In this document: one piece after another, positions 5,384 through 11,423 of the stretch
Position numbering within the stretch: position 1 is the stretch's first letter
Layout of the letters: each line of letters opens with the position of its first letter
Source of the DNA: Comamonadaceae bacterium CG_4_9_14_3_um_filter_60_33
Lineage (GTDB): Bacteria > Pseudomonadota > Gammaproteobacteria > Burkholderiales > Burkholderiaceae_C
Direction of reading: 5' to 3'
Assembly: GCA_002789915.1 (NCBI GenBank)
Contig: PFUD01000108.1
Coordinates: forward strand, 1-36,094
Length of the DNA: 36,094 nucleotides
The notes under the pieces: model-generated
The model's database searches: none
What the model saw: the letters and a program-made list of their open reading frames with translations, nothing else
Told to the model about the DNA's origin: nothing
Program-made: the position numbers and the translations under genes

Positions 5384-5460
5384 GGTGGCTGTAGCTCAGT
5401 TGGTAGAGTCCAGGATTGTGATTCCTGTTGTCGTGGGTTCGAGCCCCATCAGCCACCCCA
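5384..5460 (+). tRNA. tRNA-His (anticodon GTG)
   Basis: A complete cloverleaf. The acceptor stem GTGGCTG pairs with CAGCCAC, with the extra histidine-specific G(-1) opposite the discriminator C. The D arm is AGCTCAGTTGGTAGAG. The anticodon stem CAGGA/TCCTG surrounds loop TTGTGAT with anticodon GTG, and the T arm contains GGTTCGAGCC. CCA is encoded. An integrase remnant starts about 110 bp downstream, so this gene is the likely attachment site for the island that follows. Confidence 0.96.
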
Positions 5461-5477
5461 GTTTGTTTTTATGTGTC

Positions 5478-5513
5478 GTAAGTCGTTGATTTCTTTATAA
5501 ATCAAGGACTTAC
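5478..5513. repeat. 15-bp inverted repeat between tRNA-His and the integrase remnant
   Basis: Arms GTAAGTCGTTGATTT (5478-5492) and AAATCAAGGACTTAC (5499-5513) are complementary at 14 of 15 positions across a 6-nt loop. It lies 17 bp after the tRNA CCA. It could terminate tRNA-His transcription, since a T-run flanks it on the left only, or belong to the integration site. The function is not determined. Confidence 0.6.
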
Positions 5514-5573
5514 ACCCGGATATAAAGTCTGGTTGATACACAGCCTGTTACACAACTACGTGATACAGGCAAC

Positions 5574-6070
5574 ATGAAAACCATCGTACCAAACCTCTAC
5601 GTTCGCGGCAAACACGGCAGCATTTACCTGCGTCGCCGCATTCCCCAAGCACTCAAAAGCGCCTACCATTTTTCTCACGGCGGTCTGCACCGCACTGGAC
5701 TTTCAAATTCAACGCCAACGTGGCGAAGTGGTTCAAACTGACAAAGTGGCGCCCCTCGCACCGACCCCCAGGGAGCTGGTCACTGCAAAAGCTGAAGGGG
5801 CCGCCCTGCTGGTCGGCTGGGATGAGGCCTTCGCAATTTGGCGGGACTACGTACCTGGACGCCCCAAGAGCACCGCGATTGCCACGCAGACACCGTATCT
5901 TGAGCTTAAACGCTTGGCCGCCGAAGACGACATCCATTCCCCCAGCGGTGTCACATCGGAACTGATGCGAAAGTTTGTTGACCGTATGAGCATTCGCCCA
6001 ATGGCCCTGACGATTTTTTTGATAAACGGCTGCACCTGCATTGGTCCGATGTTACGCAGTAACGCAGTAA
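5574..6070 (+). pseudogene. Tyrosine recombinase/integrase, degraded
   Basis: The ATG at 5574 opens a short frame (55 codons, stop at 5739-5741). Its start, 'YVRGKHGSIYLRRRIPQALK', looks like the N-terminal domain of a family of phage-type integrases (DUF6538-like). The homology then moves to another frame: from about 5695 to 6020, residues such as 'WDEAFAIWRDY' and 'SGVTSELMRKFVDRMS' fit the core-binding domain. A T7 run near 6013 marks a second shift, after which 'DKRLHLHWSDVTQ' can be read in a third frame. No catalytic R-H-R-Y domain is present. The gene therefore has at least one internal deletion, two frameshifts and a lost C-terminus. Naming the family is an inference; that it is broken is plain from the sequence. 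Confidence 0.7.
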
Positions 6071-6106
6071 CACCGCATCCTCATGAATCAACGTCGGCGT
6101 TGATGG

Positions 6107-6132
6107 GTTGGTGCATGGGTACATGCACCAAC
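6107..6132. repeat. Perfect 11-bp hairpin (GTTGGTGCATG/CATGCACCAAC)
   Basis: The arms at 6107-6117 and 6122-6132 are exactly complementary with a GGTA loop. A second, GC-rich imperfect dyad (GGCCTGCC ... GGCAGGGGCC) follows immediately. No T-run follows, so a simple intrinsic terminator is unlikely. It sits between the integrase wreck and the brxC-like fragment. Confidence 0.6.
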
Positions 6133-6177
6133 GGGGGGCCTGCCGGCGGCCCTGGCAGGGGCCTGAAGTCAATTTGA

Positions 6178-6308
6178 AAAATTCAGAAATTCCGCAGTCA
6201 AAGTCACAAGACCATTAACCCGCTTTGATCAACATCAGTGATGGATGCGCCAACTCGTTCATCACGCTTCTTGATCAATTCAGTTGATAACACCAGCACG
6301 ATTGCTGA
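6178..6308. other. Non-coding gap inside the island
   Basis: I see no gene here. The only structure is an interrupted dyad: TGATCAA-5 nt-GTGATG (6226-6243) facing CATCAC-5 nt-TTGATCA (6260-6277). A stop in the frame of the next fragment at 6306-6308 closes the gap. Confidence 0.5.
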
Positions 6309-6671
6309 TCGTACTCAGTTGTCCTCAAATCCACCGAGCGGCTGTTTAAACACTTGACGGATGCTCAGCGCACCAAGCTAACGCAAGACCATCACCTGGC
6401 ACCGCTTAAACCAATCAAGCTGGCCACGCCAGACCAACTGCAAGACGCGCTGGACGACTGCACGCTGGACCACTGGAGTTCCAAAACCCAAGCCCTGAGC
6501 AGCCGTTTTGATGCTGCCCGCCACGCCGCATTGCTACTGCTAAAACCCAATGTCATGCTCGTCAGAATTAAGAAGCGTACTCTCAATAACGAAGCAGAAC
6601 TGAAAGCCTGGCTGGCTGAAGATGAGCAGCTACTCGCTGATAAATTGAAAATTGGCGCGGTCGCATTTTGA
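6309..6671 (+). pseudogene. brxC: BREX P-loop protein BrxC (PglY-like), C-terminal fragment
   Basis: The frame is open from 6309 to the stop at 6669-6671, about 120 codons. It resembles my recollection of the extreme C-terminus of BrxC, the roughly 1200-residue ATPase of BREX phage-exclusion systems: 'LTDAQRTKLTQDHHLAP', a helical stretch 'RFDAARHAALLLLKP', and a final 'NNEAELKAWLAEDEQLLADKL'. The protein-like sequence continues upstream of the only usable start (TTG at 6354) without an ATG, as expected for a 3' remnant rather than a small gene. All ATPase and kinase-like parts are missing. The family call is inferred from pattern and is strengthened by the brxL fragment in the same orientation 0.8 kb downstream. 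Alternatively it is a fragment of another large defence ATPase. Confidence 0.55.
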
Positions 6672-6695
6672 ATTTTTGTATATCCTGTATATACT
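6668..6695 (+). promoter_or_regulatory. vapBC promoter with operator-like direct repeat
   Basis: A -35-like TTGAAT (6668-6673) and a -10-like TATACT (6690-6695) are spaced by 16 bp; the -35 overlaps the stop of the brxC-like fragment. Two tandem 9-mers, TGTATATCC (6677-6685) and TGTATATAC (6686-6694), cover the spacer and -10. That is where a VapB/VapBC autorepressor would be expected to bind. Confidence 0.6.
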
Positions 6696-6719
6696 TCAAT
6701 TTTTCAAGGAGATAAGCTC

Positions 6720-6977
6720 ATGTTGACCCGAGTTTTCAAAAGCGGCAATTCGCTGGCCGTGCGCATTCCCAAAGAGCTGGCTTTTGTCGACGGCGCGCAA
6801 GACGTTGAAGTCGAGCGGGTGGGCAACACGCTGGTGCTGCGCCCGGTGTTGCAGGAAACCATTGGCGACTTGACCCCTATCTTGTCCATGTTCAGCCCCG
6901 ACTTCATGGCCGGCGGGCGTGAGTTTCACGAAGAACGCGAGCGCGACTGGAGCGGCGCCGAAAAATCCCAGAAATAA
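6720..6977 (+). CDS. vapB: VapB-type antitoxin (SpoVT/AbrB-like)
   Basis: An 85-residue antitoxin. The N-terminal half is a swapped-hairpin AbrB/MazE-like DNA-binding domain ('RVFKSGNSLAVRIPKELAF' and 'DVEVERVGNTLVLRPV'). The C-terminal half is acidic and charged ('EFHEERERDWSG') and probably wraps the toxin active site. The ATG at 6720 has an AAGGAGA ribosome site. vapC starts 3 bp after its stop, so the two are made together. The complex should repress the promoter just upstream. It is the only intact operon within the island. Confidence 0.9.
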   Translation: MLTRVFKSGNSLAVRIPKELAFVDGAQDVEVERVGNTLVLRPVLQETIGDLTPILSMFSPDFMAGGREFHEERERDWSGAEKSQK

Positions 6978-6980
6978 GCC

Positions 6981-7385
6981 ATGCGTTACCTGCTTGACAC
7001 CAATATTTGCATTTACATCATCAAGCGCCAACCGCCTGAAGTGTTGCACCGGCTTGAATTTTTGCCCCAGGGCAGTGCCGTGATGTCGGTGGTGACCTAT
7101 GCCGAACTGCGCGCCGGGCTTGAAATACAAACCGCCAACCGTGCGCAAGACGAGCGTGTGCTGGCCCTATTTGTGCAGCGCATTCCAGTATTGCCATTTG
7201 TCGAATCTGATGCAATTAGTTTTGGTGTGCTGCGTGCTGCCGTGCGCGACCGTCAACGCGACACCATGGACCGTCTCATCGCCGCCCATGCGGTGAGCAC
7301 AGGCCTGACGCTAGTCACCAACAATGAGGCTGATTTCAGAGACTACCCCGGCTTGAAGGTAGAAAACTGGGTCAGCGCTGTGTGA
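6981..7385 (+). CDS. vapC: VapC-type PIN-domain ribonuclease toxin
   Basis: A 134-residue PIN-domain endoribonuclease. The acidic residues expected to bind metal are present: D6 in 'YLLDTNICIYIIK', E42 in 'TYAELRAG', D97 in 'TMDRLIAAHA' and D118 in 'NNEADF'. The N-terminus and length match the VapC subgroup that cuts initiator tRNA-fMet in the anticodon loop, though the target is inferred from that similarity. It follows vapB by 3 bp and appears intact. It may stabilise the remaining island by addiction. No other island gene seems functional. Confidence 0.92.
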   Translation: MRYLLDTNICIYIIKRQPPEVLHRLEFLPQGSAVMSVVTYAELRAGLEIQTANRAQDERVLALFVQRIPVLPFVESDAISFGVLRAAVRDRQRDTMDRLIAAHAVSTGLTLVTNNEADFRDYPGLKVENWVSAV

Positions 7386-7421
7386 ACAAGCCCTCAAAAC
7401 GGCAATCACGTTTTGTTGAGT

Positions 7422-7468
7422 AAATAGCCCTCTAAACACCGCCGGATAGGCGCAAGAAGCTATTAAAA
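7422..7468. repeat. Dispersed intergenic repeat of Comamonadaceae type
   Basis: The sequence AAATAGCCCTCTAAACACC... through GGCGCAAGAAGCTATT resembles a short repeat common between genes in Comamonadaceae genomes, whose reverse strand begins AATAGCTTCTTGCGC. The ends AATAGC and GCTATT form a short inverted repeat. The identification is from memory of the family pattern and needs a genome count. Confidence 0.4.
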
Positions 7469-7487
7469 ACATAACAAAACCTTATAA

Positions 7488-8234
7488 AAAAATCGAGTTT
7501 CCCCTGCCCCTGTCACACCCACACCCAACACACCGCTGCCCAAACCCCTGCGCACCCAGCTCGAGGCCACCCTTTACGCCAACCACTTCGGTCTGGTCGG
7601 CGATTTCCTGTCGAAGTGTTTCACCCAACTGCGCGAGCAGAGTAGGGTGGCAGCCTTGCAGGGGAGAGCGTTCTGGGGCGGAGCCCTTTCAGGTCGATAT
7701 CTGAATGGTGTCAACAAGACCGTCAGCGGCTTGCTCAAGCTGATTTACCCGGATGAGAGTGCCCAAGTCAGCGATGAAGACCTGGCATTGGAGGTGCGCC
7801 GCCGCGTGAAGGAGCAGCAAAAGCGCATCGGCGCGGCGGAGTTTCGCAATACCCACTTCAGCTACACGATTGGCACTGAGGGCGTGGAGAAGTTCGTTTC
7901 AACCCCAGAGCTGCAAAGCCAGAACGGCATTGGTGACGAGCCCCTGGAATGCGGTCAGATATGGACACTAAGTCCTGGTGGTCAGGATGAGCGCCCAGGC
8001 TTATTCCGCTTAGAAGTCACTGAGGGCCCGGGTTTCGGTGTGCGGGTGTTAAACAACCCGGTGCCAGCACCGTTCAGGGAGTTGATTCGCTGCGCAGAGC
8101 AAAACCTGTATGCACGTGCCGCCCAGCTTGTGGGTGCAGGCGAGGCCACAGTGCGCTGTACCAGCGGGTGCCCCGGCTGGGTGAAGCGTTACCCGTCACG
8201 TCCGTACCGGCCTTGCGGCTATAGGCTTTATTGA
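7488..8234 (+). pseudogene. brxL: BREX Lon-like ATPase/protease BrxL, internal fragment
   Basis: The frame is open from 7488 with no ATG or GTG until 7647. From about 7578 it matches the part of BrxL that follows the AAA+ core: 'HFGLVGDFLSK', then 'SGRYLNGVNKTVSGLLKL' (compare the conserved GxNKTxSGLxKxLxP of BrxL), 'RRRVKEQQKRIGAAEF' and 'FVSTPELQ'. The Walker A/B part is missing upstream, and the C-terminal Lon-type Ser/Lys protease domain is missing downstream. After 'YARAAQLVGAG' the sequence turns into unrelated residues and stops at 8234, only 51 bp before the dnaE2 stop on the other strand. It is therefore truncated at both ends and non-functional. Recognition of the family is fairly strong. 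Confidence 0.72.
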
Positions 8235-8285
8235 TCGAGGAAGCTGCTGTTCAAAGTCCGTGTGCGGTATCGGGCCAAATGGGTG

Positions 8286-11200
8286 TCAATGAAAGTCCCG
8301 GCTAGGCGCGGCGAGGCGCCCCAGCAAATGCGTCAAATCCACCAGGCACTGTGCGATCAAATTGCGGACCTCTCCTTCGCGCTGCCAAGTGCCGTAAACG
8401 CCCAGAAGTTTTGCGTTCATCAATTCCTGGCGCTGCTGCTCGCGCACACTTTTCCAGACGATCACCTGCACGCTGCCGTGTTCGTCTTCCAGCGATACAA
8501 AAACCACGCCCTTGGCGGTGCCCGGTTGCTGGCGTAGCGTCACGATGCCGCAGGCCCGCACCAGCCGACCATTAGGCAGGTCGCGCAAGGCTTTCGATGA
8601 TTTGAAACGCATGACGCTTAAGCGCTTGCGCAGCAGCGCCATGGGGTGCTGCCGGAGCGAGAGTCCGAGGGCGGCGTAGTCAAACACAATTTCTTCGCCC
8701 TCGGGCGCCTCGGGCAGTTCAAGCAGGTCTTCGTCGATGGGCGCGTCGCGCAGCAGCAGCGGCGGTGCATGTAAGGCCGCTGCGTCCCAGACCTGTTGCC
8801 GGCGGTGCCCGGACAAGCTGGCCAGGGCATCGGCTGCGGCCAGCAGTTTCATCTCGTGTTGTTCCAGTTGGGCACGGCGCGACAAGTCTTCGGCGCTCTC
8901 GAATGGCGCTTTGGCACGCGCGACCACAATGCGCTCGGCAGAGGTGCGCTGGAGCCCGTTAATTAGGCCCAGACCCAGGCGCACGGCCGGTGTGTGGGGC
9001 AAATCCTCCAGCGTGGCGTCGAGCGCGCTGAACATCACGTCCACCGAGCGCACCACCACGCCATGGCGTTGTGCGTCTTGTACCAACTGCCTGGGTGAGT
9101 AGAAACCCAGCGGTTGCGAATTGAGCATGGCGGCCAGAAAGGCGGCGGGCTCGGCGTGCTTGAGCCAGCAACTGGCGTACACCAGCAAGGCAAACGAGGC
9201 CGCGTGGGACTCCGGAAAGCCGTATTCGCTGAAGCCCTTGATCTGCTCAAAAATCTGCACGGCAAATTCTTTTTGGTAGCCGCGCGCCGTCATGCCGTCG
9301 ACGATGCGGTTGTAGTATTTCTCCAGTCCACCCTTGCGTTTCCAGGCCGCCATGGCGCGGCGCAGACCGTCGGCCTCGCCCGGGGTGAAACCGGCCGCCA
9401 AAATGCTGACCTGCATCACCTGTTCCTGAAAAACTGGCACCCCCAGCGTGCGGCCCAGGGCCTGTTCCAGCGCCGCGCTGGGGTAGCTCACCATTTCCTT
9501 GCCCTGGCGGCGGTTCAGGTAGGGGTGCACCATGCCGCCCTGAATCGGGCCTGGCCGCACCAGCGCCACCTCGATCACCAGGTCGTAAAAACACTGCGGG
9601 CGCAAGCGCGGCAACATGCTCATTTGCGCGCGCGACTCGATCTGGAAAACGCCCACCGTGTCAGCCAGGCAAATCATGGCGTAGGTGCTCGGGTCTTCGG
9701 CCGGGATGTCCTGCATCTCAAATTCAAAGCCGCGCCGCAGGCTGACGAGTGCCAGCGCTTTGCGAATGGCGGTGAGCATGCCTAAGCCCAGCACATCAAC
9801 CTTGAGCAAACCCATGGCGTCGAGGTCGTCCTTGTCCCACTCGATCACGGTGCGGTCTTCCATCGCGGCGGCTTCTATGGGCACCATGCGCGATAACGGC
9901 CCGCGGGTCAGCACAAAGCCGCCAGGGTGCTGTGACAGATGCCTTGGGAAGCCCATCAGTTGACGTGTCAGCTCCAACAACTGGCGCACCGCCAGGTCGT
10001 CCAGTGACAGGCCCAACTCTTGCAGGCGGTCGGTCTGCAACTCGCGGCCCTCCCAATGGCGGTGCGATTTGCCCAGCTTTTCCAGCAACGCCAGGTCAAA
10101 GCCCAGGGCTTTGCCAACGTCCCGAATAGCCGACTTGGGCCGGTAAGAAATCACCACCGCCGTCAGGGCGGCGCGCTCGCGACCGTATTTTTGGTACAGG
10201 TACTGGATGACTTCTTCACGGCGCTCGTGCTCGAAGTCGATGTCGATGTCGGGCGGCTCATTGCGCTCCTTGCTGATGAAGCGCTCAAACAGCACACTCA
10301 TGCGCGCCGGGTCAACCTCGGTCACGCCCAGGCAATAACACACGGCGCTGTTGGCGGCCGAGCCGCGCCCCTGGCACAGAATGTGGCGCGAGCGTGCGAA
10401 AGAAACAATGTCATAGACCGTGAGGAAATAAGGCTCGTAATGCAGCTCGCAAATGAGTGCCAACTCATGTTCGATCTGATGCTGCACTTTGGCTGTCATG
10501 CCGCCGGGCCAGCGCCGACCAGCGCCTTGGTAGGTGACCTTGCGCAAATACAACTCAGGCGTTTCGCCGGCGGGTACCACTTCTTGGGGGTACTGGTATT
10601 TCAGCTCGTCGAGGGAAAAGTCGCAGCGGTCCGCCACTTTGAGGGTCTCGGCCAAGAGCGCTTCCGGGAATATCCGGGCCAGCCGCAGCCGGCTGCGCAG
10701 GTGTTGTTCCGCGTTGACTTGCAGGTCCAGCCCGCACGCAGTTAATGGCTTGCCCACCCGGATGGCGGTCAGCACGTCCTGCAGGGGCTTGCGCGAACGC
10801 ACATGCATGTGCACATCGCCCACAGCCACCAGCGCAATGGCCGTGGCGTCGCTCAGCTGCCTTAAGTGGTGGCGCCAGATTTCATCGTCCAGGGTGAGCA
10901 ACTGCGTGACACCCAGCCAGCAGCGGCCGGTGAAATGCGTCAACAACCATTGGCCAAGCACCAGCAACTGCGCCGGGGTGTTGCTGCGCTCGGGGCAGGC
11001 CAGCACCAGGCAATCGGCCAGCACTGGCCCGTTGATGTCTTCCAGCCTAAGCCGGTAGCTGCCCTTTTTTTCAGCGCTGCGCCGCAAGCGTGTGATGAAT
11101 TCGCACAGGTTGCCGTAGCCGTTGAGATTGCAGGCCAGAACGACCAGATTGAAAGGCGTTTCACAACTGACCTGAAATTGCGAACCGACCAGCAGTTTGA

Positions 11201-11423
11201 TGCCGCAGACTTTGGCCACCCCATGGGCGCGCACCACACCGGCCAAGCTGCACTCGTCGGTGATGGCCAGCGCGGTGTAGCCCAACGCGTGGGCGCGCGT
11301 CACCAGTTCCTCGGGTTGGCTGGCCCCCTTCAGGAACGAAAAGTTGGACAGGCAGCGCAGCTCGGCGTAATTCGGTAGCTTGGGCTGCTGGGACGAAGGT
11401 GGGAACTGGGGCAGGGCGGCCAT
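8286..11423 (-). CDS. dnaE2: Error-prone DNA polymerase DnaE2 (ImuC)
   Basis: A 1045-residue C-family polymerase, the catalytic member of the ImuA-ImuB-DnaE2 mutasome that copies past DNA damage. In order: a PHP domain (about residues 18-280), the palm/fingers with catalytic aspartates in 'PPDIDIDFEHERRE' (around residue 400) and 'LLKVDVLGLGML', the helix-hairpin-helix region, and an OB fold near the C-terminus ('GVVFVSLEDEHGSVQVIVW'). The C-terminus '...SRDFH' is typical and intact although the island border is right beside it. The first PHP histidine usually found in 'YAELHC' is R23 here ('YAELRC'). It starts 9 bp after the imuB stop. Confidence 0.97.
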   Translation of the reverse strand: MAALPQFPPSSQQPKLPNYAELRCLSNFSFLKGASQPEELVTRAHALGYTALAITDECSLAGVVRAHGVAKVCGIKLLVGSQFQVSCETPFNLVVLACNLNGYGNLCEFITRLRRSAEKKGSYRLRLEDINGPVLADCLVLACPERSNTPAQLLVLGQWLLTHFTGRCWLGVTQLLTLDDEIWRHHLRQLSDATAIALVAVGDVHMHVRSRKPLQDVLTAIRVGKPLTACGLDLQVNAEQHLRSRLRLARIFPEALLAETLKVADRCDFSLDELKYQYPQEVVPAGETPELYLRKVTYQGAGRRWPGGMTAKVQHQIEHELALICELHYEPYFLTVYDIVSFARSRHILCQGRGSAANSAVCYCLGVTEVDPARMSVLFERFISKERNEPPDIDIDFEHERREEVIQYLYQKYGRERAALTAVVISYRPKSAIRDVGKALGFDLALLEKLGKSHRHWEGRELQTDRLQELGLSLDDLAVRQLLELTRQLMGFPRHLSQHPGGFVLTRGPLSRMVPIEAAAMEDRTVIEWDKDDLDAMGLLKVDVLGLGMLTAIRKALALVSLRRGFEFEMQDIPAEDPSTYAMICLADTVGVFQIESRAQMSMLPRLRPQCFYDLVIEVALVRPGPIQGGMVHPYLNRRQGKEMVSYPSAALEQALGRTLGVPVFQEQVMQVSILAAGFTPGEADGLRRAMAAWKRKGGLEKYYNRIVDGMTARGYQKEFAVQIFEQIKGFSEYGFPESHAASFALLVYASCWLKHAEPAAFLAAMLNSQPLGFYSPRQLVQDAQRHGVVVRSVDVMFSALDATLEDLPHTPAVRLGLGLINGLQRTSAERIVVARAKAPFESAEDLSRRAQLEQHEMKLLAAADALASLSGHRRQQVWDAAALHAPPLLLRDAPIDEDLLELPEAPEGEEIVFDYAALGLSLRQHPMALLRKRLSVMRFKSSKALRDLPNGRLVRACGIVTLRQQPGTAKGVVFVSLEDEHGSVQVIVWKSVREQQRQELMNAKLLGVYGTWQREGEVRNLIAQCLVDLTHLLGRLAAPSRDFH

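Follow-up and report, generated by a model that had tools for sequence, protein, structure and literature searches.

Remnants of a type I BREX phage-defence locus around an intact vapBC pair, between tRNA-His and dnaE2 of a Comamonadaceae bacterium

Accessory genes are known from the slot between brxC and pglX of type I BREX loci, as is the case for the type IV enzyme BrxU, encoded at this position in pEFER (PMC8565348), and PIN endoRNases are listed among the auxiliary BREX effectors, where they are less common than HEPN and Schlafen proteins (PMC12839542). The locus considered here resembles the pEFER system in that an accessory defence gene occupies this slot of a type I BREX, and the surveyed loci in that a PIN-domain RNase is encoded inside a BREX locus. 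However, BrxU is an intact and tested type IV restriction enzyme rather than a toxin-antitoxin pair, and the survey covers BREX effectors at large, whereas here the host BREX is destroyed. No paper on a vapBC pair inside a BREX wreck was found in the limited open-access literature searched.

The window, that is, the whole analyzed stretch of 36,094 nt, is contig PFUD01000108.1 (positions 1–36,094, forward strand) of assembly GCA_002789915.1, a draft genome of Comamonadaceae bacterium CG_4_9_14_3_um_filter_60_33 (196 contigs, ~92% complete). It was compared with 90 genomes of the genus (genomes and loci of the comparison carry labels in G and L, respectively) using profiles from PADLOC, NCBIfam, and Pfam, tRNA calls by ARAGORN, and fragment searches by tblastn. 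The best BrxL matches in these genomes (90% amino acid identity) are full-length genes of two intact loci, in uncultured beta proteobacterium Ja_bin-4054 (CAIYNH010000046, G080:C46; L103/L024) and in Comamonadaceae bacterium CG12 (PCUV01000106, G013:C36; L104/L110). Both relatives have the order brxC-vapBC-pglX-cargo-pglZ-brxL, with brxA and brxB seen in one of them. Unlike the wreck, the CG12 locus is complete (brxA, brxB, brxC, vapBC, pglX, an ATPase, a Schlafen AlbA_2 protein, pglZ, and brxL), all six type I genes being recognized by PADLOC. The Ja_bin-4054 contig ends within brxC; this locus differs from the window in that additional genes, ParE-like (by eye) and nucleotidyltransferase, surround vapBC and in that it does not lie beside tRNA-His.

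The first-pass annotation had proposed a brxC 3′ end (6309–6671) and an internal part of brxL (7488–8234) on the same strand, in type I gene order, and profile searches with BrxC and BrxL models, including TIGR02688, bore out both identifications. The first frame matches BrxC (PADLOC PDLC02489, E = 2.7e-24, profile positions 1036–1143 of 1146; NCBIfam BREX_BrxC, E = 1e-6), and the second matches BrxL (PADLOC PDLC02506, E = 5e-59, profile positions 366–563 of 680; NCBIfam TIGR02653, E = 1.8e-26, and TIGR02688, E = 1.7e-12; Pfam BrxL_ATPase, E = 1.2e-20). DNA alignment to the relatives trimmed both frames, assigning 6317–6354 to a dispersed repeat, 7491–7564 to pglX, and 8135–8278 to mobile-element and repeat debris; because of these flanking scraps and repeats, the first ~15 residues of the former frame and the last ~30 of the latter are not BREX. 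What remains of brxC is its 3′ end at 6355–6671 (plus strand; approximately the last 104 codons and the stop), about 90% of the gene being missing at the locus. The internal brxL piece (7555–8136, plus strand) contains an 18-nt in-frame deletion, and brxL homology stops at 8136. It is fused to a third remnant, the 5′ end of pglX (7491–7564, plus strand; ~24 codons, start codon lost), recognized by tblastn and by alignment to the pglX starts of both relatives, the matching intact gene of a relative being PglX by PDLC02528. The fusion joins pglX codon ~24 to brxL codon ~366 across a near-homology of ~10 bp, in a stretch where both genes are nearly identical (CCCAGCTC in the window), and the DNA missing at this junction amounts to ~10.9 kb relative to CG12 and 12.6 kb relative to Ja_bin-4054.

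All these remnants align in the same order as the complete CG12 locus, which identifies them as of type I descent. From the brxC tail through vapBC to the pglX start, the window is co-linear with CG12 in one run (75% DNA identity over 1257 columns) and with Ja_bin-4054 in pieces, whereas brxL lies 11–12.6 kb downstream in both. The DNA identity of the brxC and brxL pieces to the two relatives is 82–84% (brxL, 82% to CG12; brxC, 84%, and brxL, 83%, to Ja_bin-4054), and vapBC is 91% identical to that of Ja_bin-4054. A working type I BREX comprises brxA, brxB, brxC, pglX, pglZ, and brxL; with only pieces of brxC, pglX, and brxL left, no BREX function is possible at the locus. Profile searches of the ~92% complete draft genome found no other brxC, brxL, or pglZ; therefore, the organism is probably devoid of a working BREX, with some room left for a further copy given the draft state of the assembly (196 contigs). 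Two further brxL-profile matches cover the C-terminal part only and lie in frames of 816–846 amino acids that look like ordinary Lon proteases, and the single weak pglX match (contig C82, E = 3e-6, a 584-amino-acid frame) looks like another methyltransferase.

Both BREX pieces lie in open frames without stops (6354–6671 and 7488–8234), and decay was thus recent relative to the divergence from the relatives. The brxL piece shows 18 amino-acid-changing differences from the intact relatives, which differ mutually by 2, and the brxC piece shows 18–20, against 3 between the relatives. The excess of amino acid changes on the window branch is supported by a pooled Fisher test over brxL and brxC (p = 0.0007), a value that is indicative only, as the pairs share a branch. 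The locus is clearly a fairly recent fossil of a known type I BREX kind, and its decay is ordinary but well documented.

The left border is formed by a tRNA-His gene (GTG; 5385–5460, plus strand, ARAGORN), the integration target, followed by the attachment arm and integrase leader of an island (5461–5573, plus strand, by DNA match to relatives) and by the N-terminal half of a DUF6538 tyrosine recombinase (5574–6009, plus strand), so that the tRNA neighbor and the integrase remnant of the first-pass annotation are both confirmed. Searched by tblastn with the intact 608-amino-acid enzyme of L185, in which Pfam finds both DUF6538 and Phage_integrase, the remnant consists of residues 1–31 and, after a frame change and a loss of ~130–140 codons, residues ~164–286 (71 and 66% identity, E = 6e-9 and 3e-47, respectively). 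The 3′ half of tRNA-His (5412–5460) is likely the attachment core, because copies of only this half adjoin related integrase arms elsewhere. Such half copies are present in G002, G074, G061, and G050, which also have the attachment arm in common; the segment 5474–5649 matches G002 (81% DNA identity) next to its half copy, which the intact 608-amino-acid recombinase adjoins as well. In G002:C2:531585-599815 (in part in L185), a tRNA-His gene and a 3′-half copy are separated by ~68 kb; an integrase adjoins the half copy, and the arrangement looks like tandem islands.

The right border is dnaE2, encoding an error-prone DNA polymerase (8286–11423, minus strand; by ORF and empty-site comparison). 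Comparison of the tRNA-His–dnaE2 interval across relatives, suggested by the first-pass annotation, revealed the empty site in close relatives, where the tRNA and the dnaE2 stop are separated by ~78 bp (G022) and ~57 bp (G048) with a terminator-like hairpin between them. In the window the interval spans 2.8 kb, and the sequence matches the empty site again from the dnaE2 stop codon onward. The locus shows two marks of a tRNA island, a tyrosine recombinase remnant by the tRNA 3′ end and an empty site in close relatives; no second copy of the tRNA-His 3′ end was found in the window (search with up to three mismatches), and since this far-border direct repeat is absent, the locus is claimed only as an island remnant. 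Its absence would be accounted for if the right end had been lost as far as dnaE2. Another insertion, of ~2 kb and with small toxin-antitoxin-like genes (by eye), occupies the same interval in L144 (G028:C330).

At either outer edge, the BREX debris is bordered by scraps of mobile elements and by dispersed repeats. On the left, a transposable-element end (6105–6317; an 83% copy at G000:C23:781-995 of the same genome and an 80% copy in G082), other copies of which adjoin DUF6431-like ORFs (named by eye, and giving no Pfam match), is followed by a dispersed repeat (6317–6361) that overlaps the brxC remnant by 7 bases and recurs at the ends of contigs of G073 and, in G001, close to a transposase-like ORF. 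On the right, a scrap of an IS21-type istB (CRRGHSALYQRVPRLGE; 8135–8197, plus strand) was detected by tblastn with IstB of L190 (81%, E = 2.9e-7), Pfam assigning IstB_IS21 in relative L189, and overlaps a dispersed repeat (8186–8278) with several copies in the genome, e.g., at G000:C49:521-611, and in the genus. Within the latter, positions 8247–8277 form a repeat with GTCCGTGTGCGGTATCGG, of which G028, G014, and G070 have many copies, frequently at the ends of contigs. A further dispersed repeat of ~30 bases (GCGCAAGAAGCTATTAAAA), located within 7422–7479 just before pglX, is present in many genomes of the family and occurs twice around vapBC in Ja_bin-4054. Misassembly across the several repeats in 5461–8285 is possible, yet the reading frames and the flanks on either side give a consistent picture.

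We put the probability at about 93% that an island with a DUF6538 recombinase and a type I BREX cluster integrated at tRNA-His and was then dismantled. Insertion of the island into the tRNA-His 3′ end, with dnaE2 on its other side, is shown by the tRNA, the arm, the integrase half, and the empty site in relatives. Within the island sat the cluster brxABC-vapBC-pglX-pglZ-brxL, as documented by the pieces of brxC, vapBC, pglX, and brxL, with brxA, brxB, and pglZ supplied from the relatives. Mobile elements may have landed at or near both flanks of the BREX; deletions would have removed everything to the left of the brxC tail, one of ~11–12.6 kb would have joined pglX to brxL at the short near-homology, and another, extending to the stop codon of dnaE2, would have taken the 3′ part of brxL together with the right attachment site and the native terminator. 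The order and number of these events are our reconstruction. The earlier proposal of a complete BREX island that was integrated and lost by deletion thus holds as to the island, supported by the relatives and the empty site, but several deletions and mobile-element scraps are seen rather than a single loss. The result is a clean example of the piecewise loss of a large phage-defence island, with breakpoints readable at the base level.

Delivery of the BREX by the tRNA-His integrase is the conjectural part of this account, because no examined relative has both together: no intact BREX was found on a tRNA-His island, and no integrase or tRNA-His half in the available flanks of 90 BREX-related loci. 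This observation would suit separate arrival of the BREX pieces, e.g., by a transposon or by mobile-element recombination, into an island with other cargo, as would the scraps at both ends of the debris and the location of intact relatives at other sites (in Ja_bin-4054, the gene after brxL looks mraZ-like by eye). However, the edge scraps equally fit later insertions, and the debris lies wholly within an interval that is empty in close relatives; we consider separate arrival possible but the less probable course.

Between the brxC and pglX remnants lie intact genes for a vapB antitoxin (6720–6977, plus strand; NCBIfam NF040493, above cutoff) and a vapC PIN ribonuclease toxin (6981–7385, plus strand; Pfam PIN, E = 2.7e-17), spaced by 3 bp in the type II layout of VapB followed by a PIN-domain VapC. 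VapC also matches NF047863 (E = 8.4e-33, below the cutoff of that model) and is closest to the tRNA-fMet VapC models. The proteins are 96% (VapB) and 94% (VapC) identical to the BREX-embedded copies of Ja_bin-4054, whereas the VapC of CG12 is only 62% identical. Given the brxC-vapBC-pglX order in the intact relatives, vapBC counts as original cargo of this BREX lineage; in uncultured Thiodictyon (L060), a VapC end directly precedes pglX. The claim that everything between brxC and brxL is gone except vapBC therefore stands for the intact pair, itself part of the BREX cargo, and fails for the surviving pglX start. The pair looks functional, presumably with a predicted VapC ribonuclease held in check by VapB, an activity that we infer.

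No gene pair of the wreck other than vapBC is intact; its survival, at the same position as in two intact relatives and in keeping with the L060 arrangement, is suggestive of selection, and dN/dS relative to Ja_bin-4054 is low (0.09 for vapB and 0.07 for vapC). It is conceivable, though rather unlikely in our view, that selection retained the pair as an addiction module beyond the loss of a BREX formerly held in place with its help. Intactness is no proof of selection because the brxL piece is likewise stop-free, over 188 codons, so decay was perhaps too recent for intactness to count, and the dN/dS values mostly record the time before decay. The broader idea that the brxC-pglX gap of type I BREX in Burkholderiales is a slot for toxin-antitoxin addiction or backup modules, the pair of the wreck having outlived the BREX it guarded, is speculative and still less probable; modules met in this gap are vapBC, hipBA-like, and nucleotidyltransferase-HEPN-like. 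The wreck shows which part stays whole last, namely the toxin-antitoxin pair, and a collection of wrecks of this sort from many genomes could be used to ask whether defence islands are held in place by the toxin-antitoxin genes embedded in them.

A regulatory remnant or functional small genes instead of debris, the latter already raised in the first-pass annotation, would agree with the stop-free frames but is highly improbable, as the pieces are segments cut arbitrarily out of large proteins, the fused frame lacks the pglX start codon and runs at its end into istB and a repeat, and small functional genes are ruled out by the full-length brxC and brxL of the relatives.

Among the compared BREX loci, the brxC-pglX gap contains hipBA-like pairs (by eye) in L059:334-1947 and L080:1613-3222, and nucleotidyltransferase, HEPN-like, and Abi-like genes (by eye) in L112:6479-8713. 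In Ja_bin-4054 (L103:1923-3904), it holds a ParE-like toxin (by eye), vapBC, and a nucleotidyltransferase, the last corresponding to PADLOC PDC-M05A.
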